From NCBI GenBank assembly GCA_958295955.1, contig OY282420.1:3238435-3302434 (forward strand): a stretch of 64,000 nt of DNA, in the 5' to 3' direction. The stretch is from an uncultured Bryobacterales bacterium (GTDB lineage: Bacteria; Acidobacteriota; Terriglobia; Bryobacterales; UBA6623). Positions 9,203 through 20,529 of the stretch are shown here, one piece after another. Each line of letters opens with the position of its first letter. The first letter of the stretch is position 1. A program made the position numbers and the translations under genes. The notes under the pieces are model-generated. The model was not told the origin of the DNA. It did no database searches and worked only from the letters and a program-made list of their open reading frames with translations.

Positions 9203-10312
9203 ATGCCGCTTTTTGCAGAACAAGCCGACGCTGCCGCAGCGTCCGGCGCGTTTATCCACCAAGCCACCTTCCGCCAGTTGAGCGACTTGTACCTGCTCTC
9301 CACGGGCGGCTACCGGCCCGTCACGCGCTTTTTGAGCGCGCAAGAAACCGCGTCCGTCGCCGCAACGATGCATTTGCCCGGCGGCGAGCCCTGGAGCATC
9401 CCGGTGATTTTTCCCATCGACGAGGACACGAAGCGACGGATCGGCTCAGCGTCCCGCCTGGTTTTGAAGGATGGGGATTCCATAGCCGGGGCGCTGCACG
9501 TGGAGGATATCTTCAAGATCGACAAGAGCCGCTATGCGCAGAACATTTTCCGCACCGAGGACGAAGCTCATCCCGGCGTCGCCTGGCTGCGGGACGCCGG
9601 CGATTATTCCGTGGCCGGCAGCGTCGAAGCCGCCGCCGACTGGCAATTCGACATCCCCGGCAATCTGCCGATTTCTCCGCGCGAAACGCAAGCGATCGTC
9701 GCGCGGAAAGGCTGGAAAAAGGTTGTCGCCTTCCAGACCCGCAACCCGATCCACCGCGCGCACGAGTTCTGTACGAAGATCGCGCTCGAGACCGCCGACG
9801 GCCTGATCATTCACCCGCTTCTGGGCGAGACGAAAGCCGACGACACGCCCGTTGACGTGCGCCTCGCCTGCTACGACGCGCTGGTGAAGAATTACTACCC
9901 CGCGGAACATACGTTACTGGCCGGTTTCCCTGCCTGGATGCGCTACGCCGGCCCGCGGGAAGCCGTCTTTCACGCGCAAGTCCGCAAGAACTACGGCGCG
10001 ACGCATTTCATCGTGGGCCGCGACCACGCCGGCGTCGGCGACTACTACGGCCCGTTCGACGCGCAGCACATTTTCTCCGACTTCGCTCCGGGCGAATTGG
10101 GAATTGAGCCGATCTTCTTCGATTTCGTTCACTTCTGCAGGAAGTGCGGCGGCATGGCTTCGACCAAAACATGCCCGCATCCGCGGGAAGATCACGTACA
10201 TTTGGCGGGCAGGGCCGTCCGTCGGATGCTGGCCGAAGGCAAAAAGCCGCCTAACGAATTCACGCGGCCCGAGATCGCCGCAATCCTGCTCCAGGCGGCG
10301 CAAGCGGCATGA
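9203..10312 (+). CDS. sat: Sulfate adenylyltransferase (ATP sulfurylase)
   Basis: Makes APS and pyrophosphate from ATP and sulfate. The 369-residue protein has the family blocks in order: SDLYLLSTGGYRPVTRF, the nucleotide-binding QTRNPIHRAHEF, HPLLGETKADDTP, and GRDHAGVGDYYGP. A Cys-X2-Cys..Cys segment (FCRKCGGMASTKTCPH) lies near the end, as in homo-oligomeric bacterial and archaeal ATP sulfurylases. This is the Sat type and not the CysD/CysN type. Its stop overlaps the cysH start by four bases (ATGA), so the two are translationally coupled. First gene of a three-gene sulfate assimilation operon. Confidence 0.95.
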   Translation: MPLFAEQADAAAASGAFIHQATFRQLSDLYLLSTGGYRPVTRFLSAQETASVAATMHLPGGEPWSIPVIFPIDEDTKRRIGSASRLVLKDGDSIAGALHVEDIFKIDKSRYAQNIFRTEDEAHPGVAWLRDAGDYSVAGSVEAAADWQFDIPGNLPISPRETQAIVARKGWKKVVAFQTRNPIHRAHEFCTKIALETADGLIIHPLLGETKADDTPVDVRLACYDALVKNYYPAEHTLLAGFPAWMRYAGPREAVFHAQVRKNYGATHFIVGRDHAGVGDYYGPFDAQHIFSDFAPGELGIEPIFFDFVHFCRKCGGMASTKTCPHPREDHVHLAGRAVRRMLAEGKKPPNEFTRPEIAAILLQAAQAA

Positions 10313-11094
10313 CGAACCTCCGGCCCAAGTTCACTTGGCCCGCGCCGAACGCCTCGGCGGAGGACGTGCTGCGCTGGGGCATCGGCGAATTCGGCGAGGG
10401 GCTGGCGATCTGCACCAGCTTTCAGGCTACCGGGACCGTCGTTCTCGACATGGCCGCCTGCATGACCGCCGGCAACGTCAAGGTGTTCAGCCTCGATACG
10501 GGGAGGCTGCACGCAGAAACCTACGAGTTGATCGACAAGATTCGCGGCCGCTACGGAATCGCCGTCGAGCTCGTCGCGCCCGACAGCGCCGAGTTGACGT
10601 CGATGCTCACCATGCACGGACCGAATCTCATGTACAACAGCGTTTCCAAGCGCAAGCTGTGCTGCGAGATTCGCAAGGTGCGCTCGCTGAAGCGCAAGCT
10701 CGCCTCGCTGGACGCCTGGGTGACGGGCCTGCGGCGCAACCAGAGCAACGCCCGCGAACGCATCGAAAAAGTGGCGATCGACGAAGAGCACGGCGGCATC
10801 GTCAAGCTCGCCCCGCTGGCCGATTGGAGCGCGGAGCAGGTATTCGACTACATCGCGCGCAACGACGTGCCGCAGCACGGCTTGTACGCCCGGGGCTATC
10901 CCAGCATCGGCTGCGCTCCCTGCACGCGCGCCATCGAACCGGGCGAGCATCCCCGCGCCGGGCGCTGGTGGTGGGAAGAGAACGGCGACGGGGAATGCGG
11001 CATGCACTTCTCGCCAAGAGGCGACGTCCGCCGCGACTTCGACGTGCTGCTGGACGAAGTGCTGCCCTTGCGCCGGCCCTACCTCGTGAAATAA
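10309..11094 (+). CDS. cysH: Adenylyl-sulfate reductase (thioredoxin type, Fe-S)
   Basis: Reduces activated sulfate to sulfite with thioredoxin. The 261-residue protein has the PAPS/APS reductase fold with VFSLDTGRLHAETYE. The cysteines place it in the [4Fe-4S] APS reductase branch: a CC pair in KRKLCCEIRKV and a CXXC in SIGCAPCTRA. The catalytic Cys near the end is in GECGMH. These are absent from PAPS-specific enzymes such as that of E. coli, so the substrate is predicted to be APS, made directly by the adjacent sat. Overlaps sat by 4 bp and is followed by cysC after 46 bp. Confidence 0.93.
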   Translation: MTNLRPKFTWPAPNASAEDVLRWGIGEFGEGLAICTSFQATGTVVLDMAACMTAGNVKVFSLDTGRLHAETYELIDKIRGRYGIAVELVAPDSAELTSMLTMHGPNLMYNSVSKRKLCCEIRKVRSLKRKLASLDAWVTGLRRNQSNARERIEKVAIDEEHGGIVKLAPLADWSAEQVFDYIARNDVPQHGLYARGYPSIGCAPCTRAIEPGEHPRAGRWWWEENGDGECGMHFSPRGDVRRDFDVLLDEVLPLRRPYLVK

Positions 11095-11140: not shown

Positions 11141-11674
11141 ATGCAACACAAAGGATTCACTCTGTGGTTTACCGGACTCTCCGGCGCCGGCAAATCGACC
11201 GTCGCCAATCTCATCGGCGAGCGCCTGAAAAAAGGCGGCGCGAAGGTTGAGACGCTCGACGGCGACGTCGTGCGCACCAACCTTTCCAAGGGGCTGGGCT
11301 TCAGCAAGAAAGACCGCGACGAAAATATCCGCCGCATCGGCTTTGTCTGCAATCTGCTTTCGCGCAACGGAGTCGTGGCCATCGCGGCCGCGATCTCGCC
11401 CTACGCGGCAATCCGCAACGAAGTGCGCAGGGCGGCGGAGAACTTCGTTGAAGTCTATGTCGAATGCCCGCTCGACGCGTTGATCGCGCGCGACCCGAAG
11501 GGCCTCTACAAGAAGGCGCTGGCCGGCGAGATCGCGAATTTCACAGGGGTGTCCGACCCATACGAGGCCCCCGAAAACCCCGAGGTCCGCTTCAACTCAA
11601 GCGAGTGCTCGGCCGAAGAAGCCGCCGGCAAGATCTGGCGCTATCTGCTCGAAAAAGGGCTGCTGAGCGCATAG
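11141..11674 (+). CDS. cysC: Adenylyl-sulfate kinase
   Basis: Phosphorylates APS to PAPS. The 177-residue protein has the Walker A motif GLSGAGKSTVAN at residues 9-20, the DGDVVRTNLSKGLGFSKKDRDENIRR block that binds APS, and the YVECPLDALIARDPKGLY segment. Because the neighbouring CysH looks APS-specific, PAPS is probably not needed for assimilation and may instead feed sulfotransferases or storage. The last 10 codons end just before a non-coding stretch leading into the accessory island. Confidence 0.93.
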   Translation: MQHKGFTLWFTGLSGAGKSTVANLIGERLKKGGAKVETLDGDVVRTNLSKGLGFSKKDRDENIRRIGFVCNLLSRNGVVAIAAAISPYAAIRNEVRRAAENFVEVYVECPLDALIARDPKGLYKKALAGEIANFTGVSDPYEAPENPEVRFNSSECSAEEAAGKIWRYLLEKGLLSA

Positions 11675-11798: not shown

Positions 11799-12053
11799 AT
11801 GACCAGCCAGGCGACAACCATTCGCTCGATTCATCGCAAGGGCGAGCCGTATGCGGGGAACGGGCTTTCGTTCAGTCCTCGTCCGGCGGAACGCTACGAG
11901 CGCATCGTTTCGGGGCAGACCAAGCCCTCGTACCTGCCGCGGCGGAGCAGGCTTTCGTTCAATCCCCGTCCGGCGGAACGCTACGAGCGCATCGTTTCGG
12001 GGCAGACCAAGCCCTCGTACCTGCCGCGGCGGAGCTTTAGCGCAAAACGTTGA
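11799..12053 (+). CDS. Small ORF containing two copies of a 29-residue repeat
   Basis: An 84-residue ORF with an unusually good ribosome binding site: AGGAGG at 11787-11792, six bases before ATG. Residues 1-22 are unique. Then come two nearly identical units, the second ending SGQTKPSYLPRRS, encoded by an 87-bp tandem duplication. The peptide is basic, rich in Arg, Ser, Pro and Tyr, has no Cys, and ends in FSAKR. I do not recognise it. It lies immediately upstream of a YcaO gene on the same strand, so it could be a RiPP precursor with a duplicated core, but it might equally be a decayed gene enlarged by a duplication. Confidence 0.45.
   Translation: MTSQATTIRSIHRKGEPYAGNGLSFSPRPAERYERIVSGQTKPSYLPRRSRLSFNPRPAERYERIVSGQTKPSYLPRRSFSAKR
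11864..12035 (+). repeat. 87-bp tandem duplication, two copies in frame
   Basis: Copy 1 is 11864-11950 and copy 2 is 11951-12035 (last two bases absent). The period is 87 bp, a multiple of three, so the reading frame is kept. Only a few differences are visible (for example cagtcctcg against caatccccg near the start of each unit), so the duplication is recent or conserved. Confidence 0.9.
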
Positions 12054-12118: not shown

Positions 12119-13687
12119 TTGGGTAACGGGGATATTTGCGCCGGCGTGAGGCCGTTTTTTTTCCTGATACCGGGAATCGGTCTGGGGTTGGCTCGGGAAG
12201 GGCGCCACGAGGTGATTCCGATTTCCGAGAAACCCGAATATGTCAGGAAGGTCGCCGTCGCGGTATCCCGCTTGATCTGCAATCGCGAGGAGCCCCCGGA
12301 GGACGTTGCCGAGCACGCGCGTACGGCCTTCAGCCGCTGGCTGGAAGCGGGCGGCGTATGCAAGGCGGCTTGCATTCCGGACAAGCCCGGCCGAAGCTTC
12401 GACATGCGGCGGGAAGTAACCGAGCTTCAGCGGACCGCAGCAAATATCCCCGGTTCGGCGCAGGCGGTGAATTGGCAAGAGGTCGAGCGCTGCCTCGTCG
12501 ATCGCGGGTACCGCATTCGGCTGCGGCGGCGCGATTCCGAGACGACCGCGCCGTTCATTCCAAGCGACGACCTGCTGCCGATATACGATGTGGTTTCCCC
12601 TGACGACGAAGTTGTCGCCGAAGGGAAAGGCATCGACCGCGATCGGGCGAAGCGCTCCGCGCTTGGCGAGGCCGTCGAGCGCCTGGTGGGCGAGTCGGCT
12701 ATCGAGAACGCCCATCCTCCGGCCGCGGCGTTCGCCTCGCCCTCCGAGTTGAGCAAAGCCGGTTTTTCCCTGCCGGAGATCGTATCCGGACCGCGCGATA
12801 TCTATTCCTCCCCCGAGCTGTTCACCGATTGGGTTCGTGCGGAAACGTTCGCCGGCGGCCCTGCGTGGATTCCCGCCGAGGCCGCGTTCACGGCATACGA
12901 GCCCCATAGCGGCGTTTCCGCGTTGAATCTCTGCAACACTGTCGGCTTGGCTGCCGGCGCTACGCTCGCCGAGGCATTCGCCGGCGCTCTGCTTGAGTTG
13001 TTGGAGCTCGACGCCTGTTCGATCGCGTTCCGGTGCCGCCCCGGGTGCCCGGATGTATCCGCAGCTCAGATCGAGAGTCTCGACCCGCGCCTGTCCGCCG
13101 CCGTCGAGCGGATAAAGAAGAGTGGAATATCGGTTCATTGCAAGTGGATATCTTTGGATTGGCCCGTCCCCGTCGCTTTGACCGTCCTCGTCGACGAGCG
13201 CAATCGGATGCCGGCGTTCAGCAAAGGGAGCGGAGCGGCGTTGACTGCCGGAGACGCCCTGACGGAATCGATCGTTGAGGCATTCCAAGCCCATTCGGAC
13301 CTCTCCCTGGTCGCCAACGTCCAATGGCGGGAACTCATCCAATACGAACGGCTGTCGAACGACGAGCGTCTGGCTTGGTGCGACCCGTCCTTCCGTTCCT
13401 ATCTGACTCACCTGATATCCGAGGAGGCCGGCCCGGCGCCGCATTCCGCGGCAACAGATCAACGATCCGTCGCATCCATCGCAGATCTCTGCTATGCTCT
13501 CGAACGCAGGAAACACAAAGTGCATTGGTCTCGCCTCGGAACTCTCGCCGGCCTCCACGTCGTTCGCGTTCTCGTCGATGGGCTCGTTCCGCCCGACCCC
13601 CGCCTTGAGCGCGTGGGTCCCAGGCTCGGCGAGTGGTGCGAACGCGAAAGGATACCGGCGCCTTATGCCTGTCCGCTATACAATTAG
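12119..13687 (+). CDS. YcaO-domain cyclodehydratase-like protein
   Basis: YcaO proteins use ATP to activate peptide backbone amides, giving azolines, thioamides or amidines. The 522-residue protein has the ATP-binding motifs: S-X3-E-X2-E-R at S180/E184/E187/R188 (in KRSALGEAVERLVGE), E-X2-E at E293/E296 (in GALLELLELDA) and E387-X2-Q390 (in VEAFQAH, where the usual following Arg is His). The NTVGLAAGATLAEAF block is also typical. The C-terminus is Pro-rich (IPAPYACPLYN), loosely like the PXPXP tail of azoline-forming members. About 160 N-terminal residues match no domain I know. The start is uncertain: TTG 12119 directly follows a stop; GTG 12146 is possible. No ThiF/E1 or TfuA partner is adjacent. 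Confidence 0.78.
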   Translation: MGNGDICAGVRPFFFLIPGIGLGLAREGRHEVIPISEKPEYVRKVAVAVSRLICNREEPPEDVAEHARTAFSRWLEAGGVCKAACIPDKPGRSFDMRREVTELQRTAANIPGSAQAVNWQEVERCLVDRGYRIRLRRRDSETTAPFIPSDDLLPIYDVVSPDDEVVAEGKGIDRDRAKRSALGEAVERLVGESAIENAHPPAAAFASPSELSKAGFSLPEIVSGPRDIYSSPELFTDWVRAETFAGGPAWIPAEAAFTAYEPHSGVSALNLCNTVGLAAGATLAEAFAGALLELLELDACSIAFRCRPGCPDVSAAQIESLDPRLSAAVERIKKSGISVHCKWISLDWPVPVALTVLVDERNRMPAFSKGSGAALTAGDALTESIVEAFQAHSDLSLVANVQWRELIQYERLSNDERLAWCDPSFRSYLTHLISEEAGPAPHSAATDQRSVASIADLCYALERRKHKVHWSRLGTLAGLHVVRVLVDGLVPPDPRLERVGPRLGEWCERERIPAPYACPLYN

Positions 13688-13727: not shown

Positions 13728-15350
13728 GTGTCAAACAATAATCCAGATTTCCTTCTAAAAATGCGCCAAGCATTTCAATGTAATTTTTGTAAAATTTCGT
13801 GTACATCCTTATGTGGGGAGAGAGTAGGAGAAATAAAAAAAATATACGGAAAACCGATTGAATGCGCAACAATAAAAAGAAAACTCAATGAATCGTGTAC
13901 TGATGTAAAGCTAGAATTAGAAAAGGAAGACATAAAAATAATATATATAACCTTGCTCGTAAATTTTATCTCAGAAATTAAAAATGATAAGGACAAGTTC
14001 ATGGAAAACATTAGATCTTTCCATGAACAATTTTGGACACTCTACTACGAGCCGTCATGCCGCGCAGGTTGCACCTCAAAACGCTCCAGTTTTGCGTTTG
14101 TAAAAAACCGCACAATCCGCATCAACCAAATTCCATTCACCGAGGCAGCGTTGATTCATATCATGGCCATTGTAGGGCAATCTAATGGAATCGATCTTGA
14201 AATTGTGAACGTTCCTTGGTCCGACACCTATCGAGCTTTGGAAAATAATCGAATCGACATTGCGTTCCACGATGAGGCTATCGAGACAGCGCAACGTCGT
14301 CTCGTACCGACTCAAGTATCTCAGCATAGGCCATTATTACGCACCAAAGAACCTCTCTATAACTACAAGGGTTACTATGTGCTCGAGCGCTCAGGATACC
14401 AAAACGACAGGAGGAATAGAATAGCTATCATAGGAAATTCAGAGCACGGTGATGTGTACAAAGAATACACAGTAAAAAGAGCAAGAAAAGAAGCAAAAGA
14501 TGCAAAAGATGCAGCAAGAAAAGCAAGACAGGGAGTAGTGGTAAGAACAAAAGAAGCAGCAAAAAGAGCAAACATGGAAGCGATAAAAGCAATAGCAAGG
14601 GAAGCAGTAGAAGTAGCAGAAGAGGCAAGGGTGAAAGCGGTAAAAGCAAAAAAAGCAGCAGAAGAAGCAGAAGCAAAAGTAGAAGAAGCAGAAGCAAAGG
14701 AAAAAGAGGCACAATCAGCAAGGGCAAGAGCAAAAGCAAGAGAAGAAACAAAATCAAAAGAAGCAGAAGCAAAAGAAAAAGCAAGAGAAGCAGAAGCAGC
14801 AGAAAAAGCAGCAGAAAAAGCAGCAAAAAAAGCAAAAGCAGTAGTAGAAAAAGCAGAAAAAAAGGGAGCGAGTAAAGGAGAAATGCAAAACATGTCTCCG
14901 TATCCTGTCGACAATGTGTACGAGTGTTTTAATGTGCTATTCAAAAAAAGTGTAGATGCTTGCATTGTCGGTGGTCGTGAGAATGAGTTTGCCCAAAAAT
15001 ATCTGGCAGGCATCATTGAAGCTGATAACGAAGTTTACGGTGAGGATTTAGGAGTAGATAAGGTTTATTTCTGGGCTTTGAAGTCCACAGAGGAAGAGAG
15101 TTGGAAATCCACCGAGATTATTGCTATCTGGAATCTAACCCAGAAGATATTGAATGACAACGCAGCGGCACTCAAAGAAATACAGAACGAGATTTTGTAC
15201 CGCGTGAACTGCGATCGCGATATCGCTTTTTTTACAGCTTTCAAAGATTTGTGGGATGTGTTGACGGAGCACAAGACGCCTATCAACGATGACGGGAACC
15301 TGTTTCAGATATGCAGCGAAATGACTGAATCACATCCCAAAGGAAAATAA
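13728..15350 (+). CDS. Cys-cluster / solute-binding-like protein split by a long Ala-Glu-Lys coiled coil
   Basis: A 540-residue protein, starting GTG, with no signal peptide, so probably cytoplasmic. Residues 18-29 hold C-X2-C-X3-C-X3-C (C18, C21, C25, C29), a possible metal or Fe-S site. Residues about 125-240 look like the first lobe of a type 2 periplasmic-binding fold (FTEAALIHIMAIV, then NNRIDIAFHD and YNYKGYYVLERSGY). Residues about 245-385 are an almost uninterrupted Ala/Glu/Lys/Arg helix. The fold then seems to resume (VYECFNVLFKKSVDACIVGG). The DNA is strongly A+T-rich beside its neighbours, with AAA, GAA, GCA and AGA codons dominating, so it is probably acquired. It starts 40 bp after the YcaO gene and ends 61 bp before the permease. 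Function unknown. Confidence 0.6.
   Translation: MSNNNPDFLLKMRQAFQCNFCKISCTSLCGERVGEIKKIYGKPIECATIKRKLNESCTDVKLELEKEDIKIIYITLLVNFISEIKNDKDKFMENIRSFHEQFWTLYYEPSCRAGCTSKRSSFAFVKNRTIRINQIPFTEAALIHIMAIVGQSNGIDLEIVNVPWSDTYRALENNRIDIAFHDEAIETAQRRLVPTQVSQHRPLLRTKEPLYNYKGYYVLERSGYQNDRRNRIAIIGNSEHGDVYKEYTVKRARKEAKDAKDAARKARQGVVVRTKEAAKRANMEAIKAIAREAVEVAEEARVKAVKAKKAAEEAEAKVEEAEAKEKEAQSARARAKAREETKSKEAEAKEKAREAEAAEKAAEKAAKKAKAVVEKAEKKGASKGEMQNMSPYPVDNVYECFNVLFKKSVDACIVGGRENEFAQKYLAGIIEADNEVYGEDLGVDKVYFWALKSTEEESWKSTEIIAIWNLTQKILNDNAAALKEIQNEILYRVNCDRDIAFFTAFKDLWDVLTEHKTPINDDGNLFQICSEMTESHPKGK
14460..14885 (+). repeat. Low-complexity purine-rich tract encoding a long helix
   Basis: About 425 bp made almost only of A, G and C on this strand, built from irregular GCA, GAA, AAA and AGA triplets (for example gaagcagaagcaaaa). 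Alanine is nearly always GCA. The coding frame is maintained throughout. The strand bias is extreme compared with the rest of the window and suggests growth by slippage of short triplet repeats. Confidence 0.85.
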
Positions 15351-15411: not shown

Positions 15412-16668
15412 GTGAAGACAGCGATGCCGCTTAATTTAGGATCGAAATCGACGCGAGACGACTTTGTCGATAAAGCCGTGCCCGCTGACGCACGGGACAA
15501 CTGGCTTTCCGTGTTCGCCGTCTGGGTCGGCTTTATTGTCGTCATCGGCATCATGGCCGTAGGGGGCGGATTGGCCTCCCAGATGCAGCTTCGAGATCTA
15601 ATCCCGGCCGTTGTCGGGGGAAACGTTCTGCTTGCGGCATTCGCGTTTTTTTCCGGATGGATCGGCGCCGCTTCGGGAATGACCTTCAACCAACTGGCGG
15701 CAATCAGCTTTCCCGGCTTCTCCTGGAGGCTGGTAACGGCGTATGTGCCCATTGTCCTTATCGGTTGGTTCGGGGTCGAGGCGGCCATATTCGGCAACCT
15801 CATCGGTGAAATTCTGGATTTGCCGACACTCGGCCGCAGAGCTCTCATGTCCGGCGCGACTCTGGCGTTCGCGGTGAGTTCTTACTGGGGCTTCGTCGCC
15901 ATGCGATGGGTCAGCATGGTGGCGGTTCCTTGCGTCATCCTGCTGGGCGGCTATGCGCTACTGAGCATGACCGGCGGCAACGAAGCGCGCTTCGGCTTCG
16001 GAGAGGACGCCCTCGACCTTTCGACGGCCGTGTCGCTCGTGTCGGGAACCTGGATCATGGGCGTTCTCACGTGCCTGCCGGACCTGACGAGGTTTTGCCG
16101 AACTCCCCTGACCGGCGCCGTAGTCGGGTCGGCAGGCATTCTTTTCGGAAACAGCTTTACGCTGTTCGTCGGAGCTTCCGGCGCGGCGCTCGCCAATGAG
16201 TACGACCCCGCAAAGATTCTTGTCTCATTCGGCCTGATCCCGCTGGCCGTGCTGCTGGCCCTGGCGAACATTTGGACCACCAACGACAACAACATGTACT
16301 CGGCGGCGCTCAATGCGGCGAGAATTTTCTCGGTCAGCCGGCAGCGGGCCGTGATCGGCTGCGCCATATTGGCGGCGGCTTTTGCAGCTTTGGATCCGAC
16401 GCGCATCTCGTTTCTATTCTCGTTTTTGACGTTCATGGGCTCCACGTCGCCGGCCCTGGGCGGAGTTGTTCTCGGTTCCTGGGTCATGAGGCATGCGGCC
16501 GGATGGAAATGCGCCCGCGCTTGGCCGGCTTGGCTTGGCTGGATCGTCGGCAGCGTATGCGGAGTGGGGCTGGGAGGCATCTGGACCGTCCCGGTCGGCT
16601 TCGCCTCGGGCTGGATCGCGTGGATGGGGTTGGCGCGTTTACCTTCGGCGAGATTCTTGAAGAATTAA
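15412..16668 (+). CDS. NCS1-family nucleobase permease (cytosine permease-like)
   Basis: A 418-residue protein with about twelve hydrophobic segments. The N-terminal helix is followed by a Gly-rich segment (FIVVIGIMAVGGGLASQMQL), then WRLVTAYVPIVLIGWFGVEAA and LANIWTTNDNNMYSAALNAAR. The last block, with TNDNN, is typical of the CodB/cytosine permease group of NCS1 (nucleobase-cation symporters). The substrate could be cytosine, a purine, hydroxymethylpyrimidine or a relative. GTG 15412 is preceded by AGAAGGAAAGGA; ATG 15424 is an alternative start. Placement between the coiled-coil protein and the FRG gene, with short gaps, suggests one transcript. Confidence 0.78.
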   Translation: MKTAMPLNLGSKSTRDDFVDKAVPADARDNWLSVFAVWVGFIVVIGIMAVGGGLASQMQLRDLIPAVVGGNVLLAAFAFFSGWIGAASGMTFNQLAAISFPGFSWRLVTAYVPIVLIGWFGVEAAIFGNLIGEILDLPTLGRRALMSGATLAFAVSSYWGFVAMRWVSMVAVPCVILLGGYALLSMTGGNEARFGFGEDALDLSTAVSLVSGTWIMGVLTCLPDLTRFCRTPLTGAVVGSAGILFGNSFTLFVGASGAALANEYDPAKILVSFGLIPLAVLLALANIWTTNDNNMYSAALNAARIFSVSRQRAVIGCAILAAAFAALDPTRISFLFSFLTFMGSTSPALGGVVLGSWVMRHAAGWKCARAWPAWLGWIVGSVCGVGLGGIWTVPVGFASGWIAWMGLARLPSARFLKN

Positions 16669-16686: not shown

Positions 16687-17517
16687 ATGGCATCTCGGGA
16701 ATTTGAAAAGCGCACGTTCTACTACGACAGGTGGGACACATTCAAGAAAGACCTGTATGATCAACTCGGCCTGAAAGACTTGTCTTCCGGCAAGCAATAC
16801 CCCAAGTATATATTCAGAGGACAGAGGAATCACACTTGGAAACCCCAAGCAACTTTTTTCAGAAATATCGAGCATGTTGAAGGGAATATACGAGATAAAA
16901 TATATGACTCTATGCTGGAACGATTTAGAACACAGCTCGAGAATGATAAGGAATACCGACACTTGTTTCGGAATGACAAGAAAGACATTGAGACAGAGAA
17001 GTTAGAGCAATTCGCTCGTCACTATGAACTGCCAAGCAAGCTCACAGACTGGTCCGAAAGCCCATACATAGCCGCGTTCTTTGCATTTTCCAAATTTCTG
17101 GCGGAAGACTTGTTTTCAAAATCCGATCCGCATTCGGGTTCGAGGAAGTTCGTGGGCGTCTGGGCGCTGAAAATGAAAAGGGAGAAAGATAAAAAGTCTA
17201 TACCTAAAGATAAAGAGGTAGAAATAATCGAGGGAGATACGCTGTTGGGATCCAATCCGAGATTACGGGGTCAACGCGGGTGGTTCGTACGGACGAAGGA
17301 AAATTTAGATCTCGAAGAATGCGCAACATGCGTAACACACGAAGTTGAGGGATTGACATTATTCGCGATTTCAGCCGAGAAGACGCAGGTCCTTCGCGCG
17401 CTTATCGATTTGGATTTGATGGGCATTACATACGCATCTTTGTACACGGGAATCACCGGCTACGTAGAGCATGCGAAGATGAGAATGCAGATGGAGTTTG
17501 TCGATTCGTCGAAGTAG
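16687..17517 (+). CDS. FRG-domain protein
   Basis: A 276-residue protein. It has the defining FRGQRNHTWKPQATFFR block of the FRG domain (residues about 40-58) and the second hallmark, QFARHYELPSKLTDWSESPYIAAFFAFS (about residues 103-130). FRG proteins are frequent in defence and mobile islands; their biochemical role is unsettled. The gene is visibly A+T-richer than the permease upstream, from which it is separated by 18 bp, and the codon style matches the coiled-coil gene at 13728, so both may share an origin. Confidence 0.82.
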   Translation: MASREFEKRTFYYDRWDTFKKDLYDQLGLKDLSSGKQYPKYIFRGQRNHTWKPQATFFRNIEHVEGNIRDKIYDSMLERFRTQLENDKEYRHLFRNDKKDIETEKLEQFARHYELPSKLTDWSESPYIAAFFAFSKFLAEDLFSKSDPHSGSRKFVGVWALKMKREKDKKSIPKDKEVEIIEGDTLLGSNPRLRGQRGWFVRTKENLDLEECATCVTHEVEGLTLFAISAEKTQVLRALIDLDLMGITYASLYTGITGYVEHAKMRMQMEFVDSSK

Positions 17518-17622: not shown

Positions 17623-18345
17623 CTACTTCCCCGAAGCCGTTGAAACCGCCCGCCCGGCCTTGTCGGCAACCACCAGGCCGTCCTTCAAGACGATGCGGCG
17701 GTCCGCTTGGGAGGCCAGCGCGGCGTCGTGGGTGACCAGGATCAACGTCGCGCCCTCGGCGCGGTTGAGCGAGCGCAGCATCTCCAGCACCAACGCCCCG
17801 TTGCGGCTGTCCAGGTTGCCCGTCGGCTCGTCGGCCAGCACGATGGGCGGCTTGGCGGCGAACGCCCGCGCCACCGCCACGCGCTGCTGCTCGCCGCCGG
17901 AAAGCTGCACCGGATAATGGTCCAGCCGATCGCCGAGCCCGAATTGCTCCAGCAACTCCACGGCCCGCTTTTCGGCATGGGAGTTCCACGAACCCGTCAG
18001 GTCGAGCGGCAGCGTGACGTTTTCGACCGCGTTGAGAGTGGGAACCAGTTGGTAGGACTGGAACACGAAGCCGATCTTGCGGCCCCGCAGCAAAGCCATC
18101 TCGTCTTCCGCGAGGCCGACGATCGATTGGCCGTCGATCGCGACATCGCCCGCGGTGGGCGTATCCAACCCGGCCATCAGCCCCAGCAAAGTGCTCTTCC
18201 CGCTGCCCGACGGGCCTTCGATAGCGGCGAATTGTCCGGCCGGGATCTCGAAGTCGATGCCGCGCAGAATATCTACCCGGTGGGTTCCGCTATGGATGGA
18301 CTTGGAGAGATTGCGGACTGCGAGGACGGACCGGGGATTCGACAT
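17623..18345 (-). CDS. ybbA: ABC transporter ATP-binding protein, YbbA/LolD type
   Basis: A 240-residue ATPase. Walker A is GPSGSGKSTLLG, the Q-loop is FVFQSYQLVPTLNAVENV, the signature is LSGGEQQRVAVARA, Walker B is IVLADEPTGNLD and the H-loop is VTHDAALA. ATG 18345 (MSNPRSVLAV) is chosen; the frame is open to 18420 but would run into the divergent tesA gene. The YbbA name rests on its divergent position next to a TesA-like esterase, the arrangement known in many Proteobacteria. The FtsX-like permease normally following ybbA is not next to it here; the FRG gene lies downstream, convergent. Confidence 0.85.
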   Translation of the reverse strand: MSNPRSVLAVRNLSKSIHSGTHRVDILRGIDFEIPAGQFAAIEGPSGSGKSTLLGLMAGLDTPTAGDVAIDGQSIVGLAEDEMALLRGRKIGFVFQSYQLVPTLNAVENVTLPLDLTGSWNSHAEKRAVELLEQFGLGDRLDHYPVQLSGGEQQRVAVARAFAAKPPIVLADEPTGNLDSRNGALVLEMLRSLNRAEGATLILVTHDAALASQADRRIVLKDGLVVADKAGRAVSTASGK

Positions 18346-18371
18346 CGGCCTCCGAAGAAACTTATTATGGC

Positions 18372-19103
18372 ATGGTGGCCGGCGCAACGGGTTGCAGTCC
18401 GTCGAAACCGGCGGCGGCATGGGGCCGCAAGCGGCTTTTCGGCGCCGTCTTGCTGCTGCTCGGCGCTTGCGGCGGCAACGTCGAGACGCCGCCGCCCGCG
18501 GCCGCGGAAAGCCCCTCCGCGCCTCCGCCGGCCGACGAACGCCCCGTCATAGTCGCCTTCGGCGACAGCCTCACCGCCGGGCATGGAGTTCCGGCCGGCG
18601 CCGGCTATCCCGACTTCCTGCAGCGCGAGCTCGACGAGCGCGGCCTCGAGTACCGTGTCGTCAACGAAGGCGTCAGCGGAGAAACGACGGCCCAGGGGCT
18701 GATTCGCAGCGGAATCGTGCTTGCGCGCAAGCCGCGCTGGGTGATTGTCTGCTACGGGGCGAACGACGGCCTGCGCGGCCTGTCAACGGAAAAGATGGAA
18801 GCGAACCTGCACACGATCGTCGGGCGGTTTCTGGAGGCGAACGTCAACGTGCTGCTTGCCGGAATGCGGCTGCCCCCGAACTACGGGAGCGAGTACGTGG
18901 GCATGTTCGAAGCCGTCTTCCCGCAACTGGCGGCGGAATTGGGCGTTCCGTTCATTCCGTTTTTGCTGGAAGGCGTCGCCGGCCGGCCCGAATTGAATCA
19001 GGCGGACGGGATTCATCCCAACGTCCAAGGCAATCGGATGGTTGCGGCCCACGTCGCCAATTTCTTCGAGAAAGCCGTAGCCGGAGAAGCAGCGCGACGC
19101 TGA
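18372..19103 (+). CDS. tesA: SGNH-hydrolase / TesA-like arylesterase, probable lipoprotein
   Basis: A 243-residue hydrolase of the GDSL/SGNH family (lysophospholipase L1 / arylesterase). Block I is VAFGDSLTAGHGV with the catalytic Ser, block II VNEGVSGETT has the Gly, block III is CYGANDGLRG with Asn, and block V is DGIHPNVQGN with the Asp-X2-His pair. The N-terminus has a hydrophobic stretch ending LLLGACGG, which fits a lipobox with Cys anchoring to a membrane. Divergent from ybbA, with 26 bp between the start codons. Convergent with nuoA. Confidence 0.88.
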   Translation: MVAGATGCSPSKPAAAWGRKRLFGAVLLLLGACGGNVETPPPAAAESPSAPPPADERPVIVAFGDSLTAGHGVPAGAGYPDFLQRELDERGLEYRVVNEGVSGETTAQGLIRSGIVLARKPRWVIVCYGANDGLRGLSTEKMEANLHTIVGRFLEANVNVLLAGMRLPPNYGSEYVGMFEAVFPQLAAELGVPFIPFLLEGVAGRPELNQADGIHPNVQGNRMVAAHVANFFEKAVAGEAARR

Positions 19104-20389: not shown

Positions 20390-20529
20390 GACAGTTATTT
20401 TAACGAGGCGGCATTTTAACGAGGCGGCTCGACGCCCGAAGCGGCGCGGAACGCCGCAAGCCCGACAGCACTTTAACGGCGCTAAGATAGAAGGGTTCGT
20501 TACGGCAACGCCGATCCCGCCCCCGCCGA

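Follow-up and report, generated by a model that had tools for sequence, protein, structure and literature searches.

Gene content of the locus

The window analysed here is a stretch of 64,000 nucleotides from an uncultured Bryobacterales bacterium, and all coordinates refer to it. The gene under study (13728-15350, + strand) starts with GTG and comprises 540 codons and a stop. Its stop-to-stop frame corresponds to 544 aa, with at most four extra open codons upstream of the GTG, and so leaves almost no space for a longer N-terminus. By eye, no clear ribosome-binding site was found upstream of 13728. The protein contains 12 cysteines (positions 18, 21, 25, 29, 46, 57, 111, 115, 400, 412, 495 and 529) and is described below in four parts: a Cys-rich N-terminal part (residues 1-104, 13728-14039), a part preceding a rod (residues 105-243, 14040-14456), the Ala/Lys/Glu-rich rod itself (residues 244-382, 14457-14873) and a part following it (residues 383-540, 14874-15347).

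Computation supports a foreign base composition of the gene, with a GC content of ~40% against ~63% in the surrounding region. GC content and A-ending codons amount to 30% and 46% in residues 1-104, 47% and 25% in residues 105-243, and 42% and 22% in residues 383-540. The rod DNA stands apart from these other parts (22-46%) with 86% A-ending codons; it has 40% GC and 82% purine. A foreign origin of the gene is probable.

Four genes lie on the + strand with gaps of only 40, 61 and 18 nt. The first, at 12119-13687, encodes a YcaO-domain protein (PF02624, E 6.3e-42) of 522 aa as listed, whose true start may be downstream; it also matches TOMM_cyclo_SagD with E 4.2e-31, under the cut-off of that model. 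The 540-codon gene follows, and then a gene for an NCS1-type, cytosine-permease-like transporter of 418 aa (15412-16668; PF02133, E 2.5e-12), which matches NF008241 with E 2.1e-51, again under the cut-off. The last gene (16687-17517) is AT-rich and encodes an FRG-domain protein of 276 aa (PF08867, E 3.3e-17; PADLOC candidate PDC-S15, E 2.2e-45). Sulphate-assimilation genes are located further upstream (PAPS reductase, 10309-11094; APS kinase, 11141-11674). Among the other genomes of the order, the YcaO protein is matched in 1 of 256 at 1e-20 and the FRG protein in 1 of 256 at E 1e-10; within the family, the permease has no match at 1e-20 in any of 17 further genomes. Because these three proteins are nearly or wholly absent from the sampled relatives, the block looks accessory.

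Some smaller features accompany these genes. Just before the YcaO gene, an 84-aa open reading frame (11799-12053, + strand) with AGGAGG ahead of its ATG contains two 29-aa tandem repeats, which correspond to an 87-nt DNA repeat, and is single-copy in the genome. It matches DUF2277 with E 0.23, below the cut-off, and could be either a substrate peptide of the YcaO protein or a doubled DUF2277 relative. A relative of the FRG protein is carried by a Rhizobium conjugative plasmid, where a SIR2 gene and an IS21 element are nearby. Beyond the block, a perfect 16-nt tandem duplication lies in an intergenic-looking stretch at 20397-20428.

The N-terminal part and predicted cell location

Half of the cysteines (18, 21, 25, 29, 46 and 57) fall within residues 1-104. 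The Cys cluster claimed in the initial annotation, C18-X2-C21-X3-C25-X3-C29, has exactly this spacing by residue positions. It sits outside the predicted binding fold. From spacing alone it is a candidate metal or Fe-S site, a proposal that is not supported so far. The segment 13728-14060 had no match to Pfam families, and residues 1-104 are predicted, with low confidence, to be helical in the alignment-based AlphaFold2 model described below.

Hydropathy revealed no signal peptide, lipobox or membrane helix in the 540-aa protein. The Kyte-Doolittle maximum over 19 residues is 1.27 and is located inside the fold, and that over 11 residues, for starts within the first 35 positions, is 1.09. Both values agree with the earlier statement that a signal peptide is lacking. 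Since no segment has membrane-like hydropathy, and none occurs at the protein start, the protein is likely cytosolic. The same lack of a hydrophobic segment sets it apart from exported ABC binding proteins. Moreover, no ABC transporter permease and ATPase lie beside the gene, its neighbours being the YcaO, NCS1-type permease and FRG genes. An ATP-binding-type open reading frame at 17623-18420, LolD-like by eye, is on the opposite (-) strand.

The part before the rod resembles a type-2 periplasmic-binding fold

In Pfam, SBP_bac_3 (PF00497) matches 41 residues of the protein (145-185) with E 6.9e-5; the score of 23.1 bits is under the curated cut-off of 26.4 bits for family membership. When the segment 14040-14465 was searched alone, overlapping matches to SBP_bac_3 (8e-4), OpuAC (0.022) and NMT1 (0.08) were obtained. 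These three families belong to one Pfam clan, that of the type-2 periplasmic-binding fold. By these matches and the profile comparisons below, the sequence pattern of lobe 1 of this fold is present. No other SBP_bac_3 match is present in the host genome at E 0.01.

A profile was built from solute-binding domains found in other genomes; it used 28 of 30 fetched loci (L008-L037), two partial matches (L023 and L036) having been dropped. The part preceding the rod scored 14.4 bits on this profile, a value equalled by none of 1000 shuffles (best shuffle, 3.1). Among 45 non-overlapping open reading frames of the window, the 540-aa protein took first place; it scored 11.0 bits and the runner-up 3.2. 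Together, these sequence comparisons strongly support the assignment of residues 105-243 to a type-2 periplasmic-binding fold, of which they would form lobe 1 as well as the beginning of lobe 2, with its first strand and the start of a helix.

The part after the rod

Residues 383-540 are proposed to supply the rest of lobe 2 (to ~440) and a C-terminal part returning to lobe 1. Alone, this part scored 0.5 bits at profile positions 147-175, the place expected for the continuation of lobe 2. Anywhere in the profile, that score was equalled by 18 of 1000 shuffles and by 5 of 104 chunks of matching length taken from the window's other open reading frames; none of the 104 real-protein chunks gave a domain scoring at least 0 within positions 125-200. 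When the rod was skipped, a second profile domain spanned the junction (positions 133-175). The score then rose to 15.9, which was equalled after replacement of the C part by 4 of 1000 shuffled sequences and 1 of the 104 real-protein chunks. The hhalign probability was 0.2% for the part following the rod alone and 30.9%, over 222 aligned columns, for the joined sequence without the rod. This weak, correctly placed match extends to about residue 415, and it is likely, judging from these scores, that the fold continues after the rod, which is not proven.

In profile coordinates, the rod lies between positions ~143 and ~147, where the first helix of lobe 2 has just ended. The initial annotation had proposed a periplasmic-binding fold on both sides of an interrupting helix, each side being one half. 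The half before the rod holds up (SBP_bac_3, 6.9e-5), and the half after it is represented by the weak but correctly placed match only. The interruption itself is supported; the rod does not, however, part the protein into its two lobes, but interrupts lobe 2.

Composition and periodicity of the rod

The Ala/Glu/Lys character previously noted is borne out by residues 244-382, which include 42 Ala, 29 Lys, 27 Glu and 12 Arg. With 41 Lys/Arg, the rod has a net charge of +12, and residues 270-379 are without Gly or Pro. GCA encodes 39 of the 42 alanines. The rod DNA contains short, overlapping tandem repeats with periods of 9, 12, 21, 27 and 81 nt and is single-copy in the host genome. A 135-aa Leu-rich open frame on the opposite strand (14428-14835) is likely a by-product of its purine-rich composition.

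Between residues 272 and 341, apolar residues fill 0.75-0.92 of the a and d positions of windows read in one heptad register, and the register shifts by one from ~328, near the predicted turn described below. Few shuffles equalled the rod moments at 98.2 and 105 degrees (9 and 4 of 1000), and those at 100 and 102.86 degrees were at chance level (273 and 946 of 1000). Thirteen E-to-K i+4 pairs were counted, a number equalled by 86 of 2000 shuffles, so that the salt-bridge spacing that characterises single helices is not clearly above chance.

Structure models

AlphaFold2 run on the single sequence gave a mean pLDDT of 45.2, with blocks of ten residues above 70 in the rod alone. In this model the rod consists of two helices (241-327 and 331-382), and it matched antiparallel coiled coils, among them colicin receptor-binding hairpins and MORC2, with Z up to 12.0 among the matches listed, a range in which helical matches may mean little. 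Among the best 50 matches listed, none was a periplasmic-binding protein and all were rod matches. With a pLDDT of 45, the model is too poor to decide on the fold.

A second model was based on an alignment (A2) of 24 distant solute-binding domains and two fragments of the 540-aa protein. A2 took 24 of the 28 profile loci (L009, L010, L026 and L032 were left out) and was picked among several arrangements for placing the C halves after the rod, and so leans towards a periplasmic-binding reading. An earlier alignment (A1), in which the rod was set against lobe 2, was not used for folding. The A2-based model has a mean pLDDT of 60.5. Blocks of ten in residues 105-243 are mostly at ~54-84, with 41-42 at 181-200, and residues 391-420 reach 80-88; the model is confident to ~435, and from 437 on nearly all values are below 50, except at 509-510. 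The predicted two-lobed structure aligns over residues 108-441 with amino-acid-binding proteins (VIA Z up to 11.9, rmsd 3.5, 163 aligned), a match that is partly built in because solute-binding domains formed the alignment. Foldseek returned 44 matches at E 0.001, including solute-binding proteins and LysR regulators; whole-model TM-scores are low, the best target-normalised value being ~0.55. A viral structure library gave no match at E 0.001. Structure prediction of the full protein thus did not refute the earlier proposal, the A2-based model aligning to amino-acid-binding proteins across the rod.

The A2-based model also folds the rod into two helices (239-317 and 329-378), and both models place a turn between ~318 and ~330. 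This hairpin is not built in, since no solute-binding domain in the alignment covers the rod and the model made without alignment shows it too. The rod is accordingly predicted to be helical, as had been claimed, and to form an antiparallel hairpin and not a single straight rod. A one-piece helix of 110 residues (270-379) was set aside, as both models turn at ~318-330 and a straight rod would separate the two halves of lobe 2. From a 50-residue second arm paired with the first and 0.15 nm per residue, the projection of the hairpin is estimated at ~7 nm. Among the publications listed by our literature searches, none describes a coiled coil naturally inserted into a type-2 periplasmic-binding fold.

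Search for relatives

No relative of the 540-aa protein was detected in its own genome, 61 relatives, 257 genomes of the order or 396 of the phylum, nor, with the segment 14040-14465 only, in 399 genomes of the class; these sets overlap and include the host genome. Two matches in the 256 other genomes of the order (L004 and L005, E 0.003-0.006) were taken as chance: both are short, with other long frames running opposite to them or across them, and one has an internal stop. Scans of viral and genome contigs found no relative, and as they relied on exact octapeptides only close relatives were detectable. Plasmids yielded no relative at 0.1 and one chance match at E 3. A phage match (E 0.03), which came from one phage in two records, lies on the strand opposite the annotated gene. 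In all collections searched, the protein is an orphan.

Proposed nature of the protein and alternatives

Tentatively, we favour the view that the gene encodes a cytosolic ligand-sensing protein of type-2 periplasmic-binding fold with a Cys-rich, helical N-terminus and an antiparallel coiled-coil hairpin inserted in lobe 2, the rod being a lever or docking arm. The closest counterparts of the fold, both in the sequence matches and in the A2-based model, are family-3, amino-acid-type solute-binding domains. A small molecule would bind between the two lobes; as lobe 2 carries the rod, their closure would swing it with respect to lobe 1 and to the N-terminal part. With its net charge of +12 and its length of ~7 nm, the rod could engage a partner, nucleic acid or protein, in the manner of a lever or docking arm, and the protein may act as a signal transducer or a scaffold, as the initial annotation had suggested. 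Counting against this explanation are the absence of relatives that could show conservation and the A-ending codons and short tandem repeats of the rod, which resemble slippage and would require no function. A more specific version, in which a cytosolic sensor of periplasmic-binding type has a hairpin born from repeat expansion in a lobe-2 helix as a natural ligand-gated lever that moves when ligand binds and switches a partner, perhaps an effector of the same block, appears rather improbable to us.

The rod may instead be a tolerated spacer that has no specific role. In this reading the gene, an orphan descended from periplasmic-binding proteins, was acquired recently and is perhaps on its way out, and an A/G-rich repeat grew by slippage in one of the protein's helices. 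The predominance of GCA among the Ala codons (39/42), the excess of A-ending codons in the rod (86% vs 22-46% elsewhere), the overlapping repeats of 9 to 81 nt (9, 12, 21, 27 and 81), the low GC content (~40% vs 63% around), the lack of any relative in the collections searched and that of a clear ribosome-binding site are all in line with this. However, the frame is intact across 540 codons, the heptad-like apolar spacing is strong over part of the rod (0.75-0.92 of a/d, windows 272-341) and shuffles seldom attain the moments at 98.2 and 105 degrees (9/1000 and 4/1000), although those at 100 and 102.86 degrees are at chance; we regard this reading as possible but doubtful. It is unlikely, in turn, that the protein is not of periplasmic-binding type at all, with residues 145-185 matching only locally, through a widespread beta-alpha-beta unit, and the remainder unrelated. 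The SBP_bac_3 match does span just 41 residues and fall short of the curated cut-off, the part following the rod is weak and the model made without alignment is uninformative, but three families of the fold match one stretch and the C part falls at its expected place in the profile.

NMT1/THI5 proteins combine a type-2 periplasmic-binding fold with a Cys-rich iron motif, CCCFC. A cytosolic enzyme of this kind (thiamin pyrimidine synthesis), partnered with the neighbouring permease, would account for the NMT1 match of lobe 1 (E 0.08) and for the weak resemblance of the permease to a model of hydroxymethylpyrimidine transporters (E 5.7e-10, below the cut-off). Yet the CCCFC string is absent from the 540-aa translation, the Cys cluster is not part of the binding fold and the cytosine permease model fits the neighbouring permease far better, which makes such an enzyme very improbable. 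Given the FRG protein as a defence candidate, a defence role as the context of the block is possible but unproven. There is, in our estimate, only a small chance that the block is an anti-phage unit in which the 540-aa protein senses and the FRG protein, encoded two genes downstream, acts. The PADLOC candidate status of the FRG protein fits such a unit, as does the description of FRG in PMC9503650 as a possible NADase belonging to the ART superfamily, with a potential role as antiviral effector; both genes are also AT-rich and on one strand. Against it, a GC-rich permease gene sits between the two, the two FRG neighbourhoods inspected (the Rhizobium plasmid, and G106, compared over the first 70 residues per open reading frame) show nothing annotated or recognised as similar, and the matches of PADLOC models to the 540-aa protein are weak and fall mostly within the rod. 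Membership of the protein in a LysR, THI5 or defence family was not confirmed.

If the favoured reading, with a coiled-coil hairpin as lever or docking arm, is true, repeat expansion in nature made a reporter arm in a ligand-binding fold, as biosensor engineers do, and a slippage-prone rod was able to enter a compact domain without destroying its fold. Should the rod be a tolerated expansion, it would still illustrate clearly that a large repeat can grow within a folded domain.

Likeness to known systems

Family-3 solute-binding proteins provide the best Pfam match, and SocA and the glutamate/aspartate- and arginine-binding proteins are among the structure matches over residues 108-441. Unlike them, the 540-aa protein has no signal peptide, scores below the family cut-off and adds a Cys-rich N-terminal extension of ~104 aa and the 139-residue rod in lobe 2. 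LysR-type regulators sense ligands in the cytosol through effector domains of type-2 periplasmic-binding fold and are among the best Foldseek matches of the A2-based model; the 540-aa protein differs from them in its N-terminus, which matches no helix-turn-helix family of Pfam, and in the inserted rod.

As far as is known, the insertion sites of engineered periplasmic-binding biosensors differ from the site of the rod. These sensors carry inserted domains (PMC6335823, PMC11213343, as far as the available parts of these texts go) and resemble the predicted arrangement in that an insert within the fold can report lobe closure; one of them, iGluSnFR, is among the structure matches listed. They are, in contrast, man-made, and their inserts are fluorescent or enzymatic. 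A working likeness is offered by MORC2, one of the structure matches of the rod, whose CC1 is described in the accessible text as a charged antiparallel coiled-coil insertion of 80 residues and 6 nm in an ATPase module (PMC5811534). MORC2 is eukaryotic, with another host fold and a known role in gene silencing; what it shares with the protein proposed here is a positively charged hairpin jutting from a globular module.
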